Part shown: piece by piece, positions 40,830 to 42,971 of the stretch
Layout of the letters: each line of letters opens with the position of its first letter
Position numbering within the stretch: the stretch's first letter is position 1
NCBI RefSeq assembly: GCF_000179915.2
Contig: NC_014963.1
Location: forward strand, 4,588,001 to 4,652,000
DNA from: Terriglobus saanensis SP1PR4
GTDB lineage: Bacteria; Acidobacteriota; Terriglobia; Terriglobales; Acidobacteriaceae
DNA length: 64,000 nt
Reading direction: 5' to 3'
Translations under genes and position numbers: made by a program
Notes under the pieces: generated by a model
Told to the model about the DNA's origin: nothing
Seen by the model: the letters and a program-made list of their open reading frames with translations, nothing else
Database searches by the model: none

Positions 40830-42971
40830 TTAGTCGCCGGCAACGGTCTCTTCATCGCGGATGCTCGTAACCACCTGGGCAGTCGACTTCACCGGAGCAG
40901 CGGGTGTGATGCCACCCAGACCACCGATGTCGCCGATGGCAACGAAACCACCGGGAAGCTCAGGCTCCTTGAGGATTTCCTTGCGATACAGCTTGGCCAT
41001 ACGAGCGTTCTCGGCATCCATCTTCAGCTTTGCGTCACGCGCCATGACCTTTTCTTCACGCGCATTCTTCGCAATACCGGACTTCTCGAACGTGTCGTTT
41101 GCCGCTGCATTGACGTGCTCATCGTTCAGAACCAGGTCATACTTCTCCTGCTTCTCGATGGCGACCTTCTTGCCGCCGGCAAAGATCTCATGACGTCCAT
41201 GCTCCTCGTACCACTTGGTGAGCGTGGAGGTCATGTGCATCTTCTCGATGATGTTTCTCCAACCCACACCGGTGTTGTAGGCGCAGAAGCTGATCTCGCC
41301 TTCCTGGGTCGCGTACGGAATGATGCACTGCTCCGTGCGGCGGAAGTCGTAGTTGAAGAGATCCTGGAACCACATGCCTGCGATGAACAGGAAGTTCCAA
41401 CGATCGGCGCGACGCATCTTGATGTCTTCCATCGTGCGGTCCGCCGTGACCTTGCCGTAGTTGCGGCCGGTCGCGCCGAAGCACTTGTCAAACTTCTGCA
41501 GAAGATCGGAGATCTTGAAGTGCGTCGGAGCCTTGGAAGGATCGTAGTTGCGCAGCAGGGCCAGCGAAACACCGAGGATCGAGAGGAACTTGCCGCGAGC
41601 AGCATCGTTCACCTTGGCTACATCCTTCGCCAGACGATCGGCGTTGATGAAGGCCGTTACGGGAACAGCTTCCTTCGTTTCCTTGTCGATCATCAGCGCC
41701 ATACCGATACCGCAGTTCGGATGGCAGCCGCAGGAGAGCTGGCCCCAGTCCGTATCCGGTCCGTGCACCAGATCGGCCCAGTCGGAGAAGGTGCTCATGA
41801 AGGAGATTGGGAACCAATCGCGGGTGGATTCGCCAAGACCGGTCTGCGTGCGGACGTCATGCGCGAGATGCGACAGCGTGTAACGCTGTGCCGCGCGACG
41901 CTCGTCCGAAACCGCCTCATCACGGCCGGTAAACGAAACCGGCTGGAACGAGAGAAAGTTGATCTTCTTGGGGTTATCGAGAGCGAACTCGATGATGCGT
42001 CCAACCTGCTCATTGTTGATGCCGTTGATGATCGTCGTTACGGGAACGATGTCGACGCCAGCCTCGTGCAGGTTATGGATGGCCTGAAGCTTTACGTCGA
42101 AGGCGTTTCCAACCTTGCGATGCGAGTTGGCTGCGTTGCCGATACCGTCGAACTGCAGGTAGGCATAACGCAGACCCGCTTCCGCAGCGGCCTTGGCGAA
42201 TTCCTTGGACTTTGCAAACTCGATACCGTTCGTCGCAGCCTGCACCGAGTTGTAACCCACCTTGCGGGAGTAGGCGACGGCGTCGAGGAAGTAAGGCGAA
42301 AGCGTCGGCTCACCACCGGAGAACTGTACCGACATCTGGCGGCGGGGCTTGATCTGGATCGCGTTGTCCAGCATGGTCTTGATCTCGTCCCACGTGAGTT
42401 CGTGAACGAAACCGACCTGGTTGGCATCCATGAAGCAGGGATCGCACATCATGTTGCAGCGGTTCGTCAGATCGATGGTCAGAACCGATCCACGTCCGTG
42501 CGTCACGGTCGAGGTGCCGTGGTTGTGCAGCTTCTCGTCGTTGTGAGCGCGGATATCGCGGCCCGGGAACACTTTCTCCAGATGCGCCATCATCTCAACG
42601 TCGATCGACATGAGATCTTCAAAATGTCCGTGAATCGGGCAGTCCTTCACCATCAGGATCTGGCCGTCGCGCTCGATGATCTGCGCCTTGATCTCGCCGA
42701 CCTTCTCATTTAGAAGGATCTCGTGCGGCAGCTTGCCGTCGATGATCTGCTGGCGGATCTCGGGGATACACTTAGGGCAGAGAGAGTCCGTCGTGCGGGG
42801 CCATCCAAGGGGGGGCTTCTCTTTCTGGTAGCTCTTCAGAAGGGGCTTATCGCTCCATCGCGGCGTAAAGCTTGCGTTGGGGCTGATGCTGTTCAGCTTT
42901 TCAAAGATGGCCCAACCGGCCTTTGCCGTTAGCGTGAGGCTCTGCTCTACTAGTTTCGAAACTTTCGACAT
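40830..42971 (-). CDS. Radical SAM protein resembling membrane-spanning (tetraether-type) lipid synthases
   Basis: The 713-residue protein has four features. First, an N-terminal CxxC block, TDSLCPKCIPEIR (C65, C68), with KDCPIHGHFED around C111. Second, a radical SAM cluster motif C172-NMM-C176-DP-C179. Third, the SAM-site GGEP in VQFSGGEPTLSP. Fourth, a later Cys-rich SCGCHPNCGIG and a C-terminal ISFCAYNTGVGWRNIIE block. The order (SLCPxC, CPxHGxFxD, radical SAM, CHPxCG, FCAYN) matches the MJ0619-type family that includes archaeal Tes and bacterial membrane-spanning lipid synthases, as I remember it. Terriglobia are known for membrane-spanning iso-diabolic acids. It is a single gene; ATG 42971 has GGAGAAGC upstream. 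The activity is inferred. Confidence 0.8.
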   Translation of the reverse strand: MSKVSKLVEQSLTLTAKAGWAIFEKLNSISPNASFTPRWSDKPLLKSYQKEKPPLGWPRTTDSLCPKCIPEIRQQIIDGKLPHEILLNEKVGEIKAQIIERDGQILMVKDCPIHGHFEDLMSIDVEMMAHLEKVFPGRDIRAHNDEKLHNHGTSTVTHGRGSVLTIDLTNRCNMMCDPCFMDANQVGFVHELTWDEIKTMLDNAIQIKPRRQMSVQFSGGEPTLSPYFLDAVAYSRKVGYNSVQAATNGIEFAKSKEFAKAAAEAGLRYAYLQFDGIGNAANSHRKVGNAFDVKLQAIHNLHEAGVDIVPVTTIINGINNEQVGRIIEFALDNPKKINFLSFQPVSFTGRDEAVSDERRAAQRYTLSHLAHDVRTQTGLGESTRDWFPISFMSTFSDWADLVHGPDTDWGQLSCGCHPNCGIGMALMIDKETKEAVPVTAFINADRLAKDVAKVNDAARGKFLSILGVSLALLRNYDPSKAPTHFKISDLLQKFDKCFGATGRNYGKVTADRTMEDIKMRRADRWNFLFIAGMWFQDLFNYDFRRTEQCIIPYATQEGEISFCAYNTGVGWRNIIEKMHMTSTLTKWYEEHGRHEIFAGGKKVAIEKQEKYDLVLNDEHVNAAANDTFEKSGIAKNAREEKVMARDAKLKMDAENARMAKLYRKEILKEPELPGGFVAIGDIGGLGGITPAAPVKSTAQVVTSIRDEETVAGD

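Follow-up and report, generated by a model that had tools for sequence, protein, structure and literature searches.

GDGT-MAS, the tetraether lipid synthase Tes (MJ0619, PDB 7tol/7tom), joins terminal carbons through two cleavages of S-adenosylmethionine (SAM), with a bond between substrate and sulfur formed on a cluster (PMC9433317). Its structure has four metal sites: besides the rubredoxin site and the radical SAM cluster there are two further [Fe4S4] clusters, an N-terminal one at the surface with C73, C77, C80 and a His as ligands and a C-terminal one with a labile Met439; density in its pockets was interpreted as E. coli phosphatidic acid, and Tyr459, which is invariant across 1,000 archaeal GDGT-MAS homologues, can be mutated with activity retained (PMC9433317). 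The archaeal glycerol monoalkyl glycerol tetraether (GMGT) synthase Gms likewise couples lipid tails by radical SAM C(sp3)-C(sp3) chemistry and, compared by description only, differs in being a SPASM-type enzyme with two fully Cys-ligated auxiliary clusters (PMC11186832). Zeng et al. already proposed in 2022 that bacterial Tes homologues, those of Acidobacteria by name, synthesize membrane-spanning lipids (PMC8941075). Iso-diabolic acid, which probably arises by tail-to-tail joining of two iso-C15 acids (PMC13274423), accounts for 12-49% of fatty acids across the 11 tabulated strains of cultured Terriglobia (PMC11354219, PMC12935467), and its synthase in Terriglobia is unproven in the portions of the literature searched. 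Here we describe a candidate from Terriglobus saanensis SP1PR4: a Tes-like radical SAM gene on the minus strand at 40830-42971 (stop codon included) of a 64,000-nucleotide stretch of contig NC_014963.1, hereafter the window, which encodes a protein of 713 amino acids.

In fold the window protein resembles Tes, and its chemistry is very probably Tes-like as well. It is likely to belong to an acidobacterial subfamily derived from Tes and to act as a radical SAM enzyme for C(sp3)-C(sp3) coupling, linking two iso-C15 tails at their methyl ends to give iso-diabolic acid, and the window-type gene is the leading candidate for the iso-diabolic acid synthase in Terriglobia. The analysis established the fold, the conserved catalytic residues, the phylogeny, the distribution and the selection acting on the gene; the substrate and product we infer.

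The frame is complete, with an ATG start codon at 42971 and its stop at 40830-40832 as read from the sequence, in agreement with a sequence-only reading that had placed a radical SAM gene at these coordinates and gave no strand. The gene is not a chance frame because its translation matches GDGT-MAS in the PDB with E 1.2e-60 and because dN/dS (the ratio of nonsynonymous to synonymous substitution rates) is 0.065-0.12 against 12 orthologues, which marks strong purifying selection. Pfam recognized Radical_SAM (PF04055, 69.7 bits, residues 168-330) together with an N-terminal HMPTM zinc ribbon, and the best NCBIfam family was the tetraether lipid synthase Tes (NF045702), matched over the whole length. 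A structure predicted from a 54-sequence alignment (mean predicted local distance difference test score, pLDDT, 88; predicted template modelling score, pTM, 0.87) aligned with GDGT-MAS 7tom at Z 43.3 and a root-mean-square deviation of 2.3 over 477/498 residues, covering model residues 57-594. The next-best fold family, MoaA, reached Z 20.9 over 271 residues, and the many other radical SAM enzymes in the structure comparison (VIA-align) all had Z ≤21. The protein thus shares with GDGT-MAS/Tes the whole fold, the rubredoxin site, the radical SAM cluster, the C-terminal cluster positions, the labile Met and the conserved Tyr, and differs in its 30.5% identity, its lack of N-terminal [Fe4S4] ligands, its N- and C-terminal extensions and a score below the Tes cut-off.

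Residues were counted in a 131-row alignment that includes MJ0619, with 100 rows for the window subfamily (97 distinct sequences, given the duplicate rows L058/L115, L060/L091 and L085/L106; L065 is a fragment and L062 has an internal stop). Positions of the rubredoxin site, the radical SAM cluster, Gln268, Ser271, Arg275, C338, M439, C455, Y459 and C470 are retained in 99-100/100 subfamily rows, the single gaps coming from one fragment. The rubredoxin-like metal site (residues 57-122; 42606-42803, minus strand), assigned from site and loop counts and the published GDGT-MAS ligands (PMC9433317), has the form C65-x2-C68 ... C111-x2-H114, and these four ligands stand in all 99 subfamily rows with data. 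The radical SAM core (residues 162-350; 41922-42488, minus strand), placed by PF04055 and motif positions, carries CX3CX2C at residues 172-179 (C172, C176, C179) and GGEP at 219-222. The C-terminal auxiliary-cluster/lipid-pocket region (residues 414-594; 41190-41732, minus strand), placed by the MJ0619 alignment and the 7tom fold match, contains Cys420, Met533 (equivalent to M439), Cys549, Tyr553 (equivalent to Y459) and Cys563; C420, C549, C563 and M533 occur in 100/100 rows, and the three cysteines are the putative ligands of the C-terminal cluster. Conserved Tyr553 is a marker of kinship, not proof of function, because Tyr459 mutants of GDGT-MAS retain activity. All the motifs that the sequence-only reading had named were found again (SLCPKC at residue 63, CPIHGHFED at 111, CNMMCDPC at 172, GGEP at 219, CHPNCG at 416 and FCAYN at 562), and each occurs in 78-80 of the best 80 of at least 584 named relatives, whose genomes are partly shared with the alignment.

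The N-terminal cluster is the clear departure from this pattern. Equivalents of C73, C77 and C80 occur in 0/100 subfamily rows versus 22/22 strict Tes rows (MJ0619 included), and among the best 80 of those named relatives the stretch from the rubredoxin site to the radical SAM motif is free of Cys in all 78 measurable loci. At the site of the lost cluster (residues 137-161; 42489-42563, minus strand), located by alignment and residue counts, His149 and His151 are present in 99/99 rows with data and Asp145 in 98/99; standing in place of the cluster ligands, these residues could bind another metal. Two further traits accompany the loss. The rubredoxin loop spans 42 residues, as in the window protein, in 96 of the 99 subfamily rows with data and 48 in the other 3, compared with 20 in the 21 acidobacterial Tes rows and in the published GDGT-MAS/Tes motif, and an extra Cys414 is found in 100/100 subfamily rows versus 4/22 Tes rows. 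The N-terminal cluster may be dispensable for the coupling chemistry.

Two acidobacterial kinds can be distinguished by sequence, the window-type subfamily and strict Tes. Window-type proteins are 27.6-34.7% identical to MJ0619 (median 30.5) and score 312-332 bits with the Tes model in nine named genomes and 321-344 bits in four further subfamily proteins (five with the window protein). Strict acidobacterial Tes proteins (group D) are 37-47% identical to MJ0619 (median 42), and the five scanned score 472-583 bits, all over the cut-off. Group D shares the phylum and the tested catalytic residues, except Ser271 (6/22 rows), and keeps all four metal sites, unlike the window protein. Zeng et al. 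(PMC8941075) reported a similar pair of identity levels against another archaeal Tes, 32% for Edaphobacter aggregans and 40-42% for Koribacter/Solibacter; the latter proteins would fit group D by identity.

In a tree of 75 rows, built by a quick method with near-duplicates and fragments left out and with Shimodaira-Hasegawa-like approximate likelihood ratio test (SH-aLRT) support only, the window clade (clade A, 30 rows) is set off from the rest by a branch with SH-aLRT 100, and clade A plus paralogues form one 47-row group (SH-aLRT 100) nested within strict Tes and apart from TrsS-like and other relatives. The tree placement that the sequence-only reading had called for thus puts the protein inside Tes. 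Neither the TrsS-like outgroup nor strict Tes is one clade in this tree, and L083, L084, L124 and a mycobacterial row sit on long branches. Because the subfamily nests within strict Tes, the simplest reading, if the root is right, is that the N-terminal cluster was lost once. That reading's assignment to the MJ0619/Tes-type family therefore survives in part: fold, catalytic residues, phylogeny and a lipid match in one exact strain give good support to the kinship and to a role in coupling lipid tails, and strict Tes membership is rejected, the protein scoring 322 bits against a cut-off of 450 and lacking the N-cluster ligands.

Several relatives around the subfamily are of interest in their own right. 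A second member in the same genus (L124, G011:C1:3779569-3781920), 40% identical, retains the radical SAM motif and lacks the C-cluster cysteines and the Tyr459 equivalent; from its sequence it appears to be a changed or dying paralogue. An acidobacterial set about 29% identical (L080-L084, L134-L136) has the N-cluster cysteines in 8/8 members and the C-cluster ones in 1/8 (three rows are cut short), and probably has another function. Ten plasmid records contain relatives at most about 28% identical. Two contigs labelled Rhodanobacteraceae (L155, L157) carry copies 84-86% identical to the window gene, and because of this identity the metagenome-assembled genomes (MAGs) concerned are probably mislabelled or contaminated.

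The subfamily gene is widespread in Acidobacteriota, the phylum covered by the distribution survey. It is present in 19/19 genomes of the genus (host included) and 15/18 other genomes of the family, or 34/37 family genomes sampled, in 4/14 genomes of a second family in the order and in 9/10 genomes of other families in the class. A search of 297 phylum genomes at 1e-20 gave matches in 164 and none in 133. Classified by best E-value, with up to three candidates scored per genome, the 164 divide into 139 with the window subfamily, 19 with strict Tes only and 6 with distant relatives only (14 of the 19 group-D genomes and 5 of the 6 distant ones were inspected individually). A single full-length Tes-family copy was found in 8/9 named genomes searched; Acidicapsa dinghuensis has two. 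Three same-family genomes without the gene (G036, G019 and G027), one of them 99% complete, offer natural tests of the link between gene and lipid.

Lipid records are consistent with this distribution in the strain where both can be compared directly. Edaphobacter modestus DSM 18101 contains 30.4% iso-diabolic acid (PMC11354219), and its genome has one full-length Tes-family gene, which belongs to the window subfamily, the next match scoring 53 bits. Five other Edaphobacter strains in the same table contain 12-28% (PMC11354219), and five Occallatibacter-Telmatobacter-Terracidiphilus strains contain 27-49% (PMC12935467). Acidipila rosea carries the subfamily gene, and the entry for its genus lists no iso-diabolic acid (PMC6252331); this may reflect method because the same table also omits the acid for Terracidiphilus, where 30% is reported elsewhere (PMC12935467).

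By the mechanism that we propose, two iso-C15 phospholipid tails would enter the hydrophobic pockets, and a 5'-deoxyadenosyl radical would abstract hydrogen from one terminal methyl. The resulting carbon radical would be held at the C-terminal [Fe4S4] cluster beside the labile Met while another SAM molecule activates the partner tail, after which a bond would form between both methyl carbons across the membrane. Phytanyl and iso-C15 chains both terminate in an isopropyl group, so the coupling chemistry would match that of GDGT-MAS. Ester lipids fit the GDGT-MAS fold, as the phosphatidic-acid density in its pockets indicates. We further infer that the protein contacts the membrane, for which the N-terminal helix (residues 3-28; 42888-42965, minus strand), modelled with pLDDT of 82-95 in blocks and a hydrophobic moment of 0.31-0.40, is a possible membrane-surface helix.

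A number of observations weigh against this assignment. The absence of the N-terminal cluster and the missed Tes cut-off mean that the chemistry could have changed, and the Tes score is unspecific below that cut-off, where three TrsS-like plasmid proteins reach 283-324 bits over part of the model. In the second family of the order, 6/14 genomes lack the subfamily and have a strict-Tes-type gene in its place. Agreement between gene and lipid comes from one exact strain (DSM 18101) plus relatives, the host's lipids lying outside the comparison, and in Solibacter usitatus, which has Tes homologues, iso-diabolic acid is not detectable (PMC10087280). A 2025 paper describes the function of bacterial Tes homologues as lacking experimental confirmation (PMC11868695). 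Within the host, six radical SAM genes belong to no firm family; two of them have B12-binding matches (one below the Pfam cut-off), and one, the B12-type L225, has a 'lipid biosynthesis' family as its best match, below cut-off.

Those six genes leave room for another enzyme, for example a homologue of Thermotoga Mss, to make the host's iso-diabolic acid while the window protein couples or modifies a different lipid. We regard this as unlikely, although it has points in its favour: Mss, known from Thermotoga and Bacillota, joins fatty acid tails and is the bacterial enzyme for which confirmation by expression in E. coli is reported (PMC11604127, PMC13274423), co-expression with ger having given no membrane-spanning lipid there (PMC11604127), and Mss matches are reported in 11/97 acidobacterial MAGs from the Black Sea (PMC11868695). 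The host has 21 radical SAM genes. Only the window gene matches Tes over its full length, the other four Tes matches spanning the radical SAM core alone; among the other 20 genes, 12 pass an equivalog cut-off (e.g., MoaA, MiaB, HpnH, HpnJ, BioB, LipA), an MqnE-like gene passes a subfamily cut-off only, a QueE-like gene falls below cut-off, and the six genes already mentioned make up the rest. (The host also encodes a GDL-motif peptide radical SAM maturase, 860 bits, outside the window at G000:C1:4343260-4343670.) Iso-diabolic acid needs its terminal methyls joined, as in Tes. The diabolic acid of Thermotoga is instead described as joined at the omega-1 carbons (PMC8788747), and Mss, compared here by description only, is said to retain the Tes catalytic architecture on the basis of a model superposition (PMC13274423), the architecture that in this host is matched at full length by the window gene.

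If the protein were a Tes relative, TrsS-like or otherwise repurposed, with a non-lipid or small-molecule substrate, the lost cluster and the extra termini, which are signs of change, would be accounted for, and TrsS (NF045646) is the second NCBIfam match at 206 bits. This is improbable. The window protein favours Tes by 116 bits (322 vs 206) with a whole-length match, and the entire GDGT-MAS fold aligns, the C-terminal part included. The methyltransferase is the partner of TrsS. Three haloarchaeal/mycobacterial plasmids (L259, L260, L261) each carry a TrsS-like gene that favours TrsS (336-353 bits, under both cut-offs, that of TrsS being 490) and is followed directly by a methyltransferase gene, whereas none was found among the 10 neighbours of the window gene that were scanned. 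Its homology to the TrsS radical SAM (seleno)protein is thus a distant one of the core, and TrsS identity is rejected, with 206 bits against the cut-off of 490 and no methyltransferase among those neighbours. The N-terminal Pfam domain is named for a pterin methylase (HMPTM), apparently a leftover of the pterin role once assigned to MJ0619; that role is not upheld in the available part of the structure paper (PMC9433317), and the old pterin methylase label is likewise rejected. Least probable of all, and given very little credence here, is that the enzyme uses ether lipids as substrate and that its product is branched glycerol dialkyl glycerol tetraethers (brGDGTs), not ester-bound iso-diabolic acid. 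Synthesis of brGDGTs was proposed for bacterial homologues, that of E. aggregans included (Zeng et al., PMC8941075), and this species makes small amounts of one brGDGT, more under oxygen limitation (PMC13274423). Against this, Edaphobacter strains in a 2024 study yielded no glycerol ethers but 12-30% iso-diabolic acid, and its authors think that growth conditions may explain the missing ethers (PMC11354219). A search for an ether-lipid reductase with PF06050 gave no host match, but the Thermotoga control had none either, and this search was dropped for PF09989. The latter, which we take to be part of PlsA/Ger, is absent from the host and present in the Thermotoga control; ElbD was not searched for. 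Coupling of iso-C15 tails by the window protein remains the explanation that we favour.

The gene stands by itself in a genome that is one contig of 5.1 Mb. A ribosome-binding site, AGGAG, lies 5 bases ahead of the ATG (42977-42981, minus strand, from sequence reading), and an intrinsic terminator with a perfect 18-bp hairpin and an AACT loop follows the stop (40757-40796, minus strand; sequence and RNA fold, z -7.4), so that the strong terminator of its own described by the sequence-only reading is indeed there. A simple terminator scan did not list this hairpin, apparently because the T run sits within the stem, and its sole terminator-like match was on the opposite strand. Downstream of the part aligned with GDGT-MAS, the protein has a C-terminal extension (residues 595-713; 40833-41189, minus strand), delimited by the aligned range, model confidence and the lengths after FC, in which residues 675-713 are modelled at low confidence. 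The same reading had called the gene isolated and free of nearby lipid genes, and both descriptions hold. Searched against Pfam, the 10 neighbouring frames show no recognized lipid-synthesis family, 2/10 having no match at all, and no conserved operon was found among 50 loci (the window plus 49 of the 80 named loci), where the commonest genuine neighbour family, with frames overlapping the gene excluded, occurs in 17/50. Upstream of the gene, 44187-45176 and 45236-46045 encode a pair of similar, unannotated proteins that Pfam does not match, and their family lies nearby in 17/50 loci.

The cluster-reduced enzyme is claimed by none of the curated families searched, and the portions of the literature searched, with the 2022 Mss paper outside them, hold no earlier mention of N-cluster loss or of two acidobacterial kinds. 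Iso-diabolic acid resembles the alkyl chains of brGDGTs, which serve as soil thermometers of past climate (PMC13274423), and the question of its origin is experimentally tractable because it concerns one gene, found in nearly all family genomes sampled and single-copy in most named genomes searched. We propose tentatively, at slightly short of even chances, that Acidobacteriota derived a tail-coupling synthase of their own from a bacterial Tes through shedding of the surface N-terminal [Fe4S4] cluster, perhaps as an oxygen adaptation, and that this cluster-reduced enzyme is the missing iso-diabolic acid synthase responsible for a quarter to half of the fatty acids in most cultured Terriglobia tabulated (10/11 strains, PMC11354219 and PMC12935467), by a path separate from the Mss route in anaerobes. 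Should the active enzyme prove to have truly lost the cluster, the N-terminal cluster of Tes would be dispensable for C(sp3)-C(sp3) coupling.

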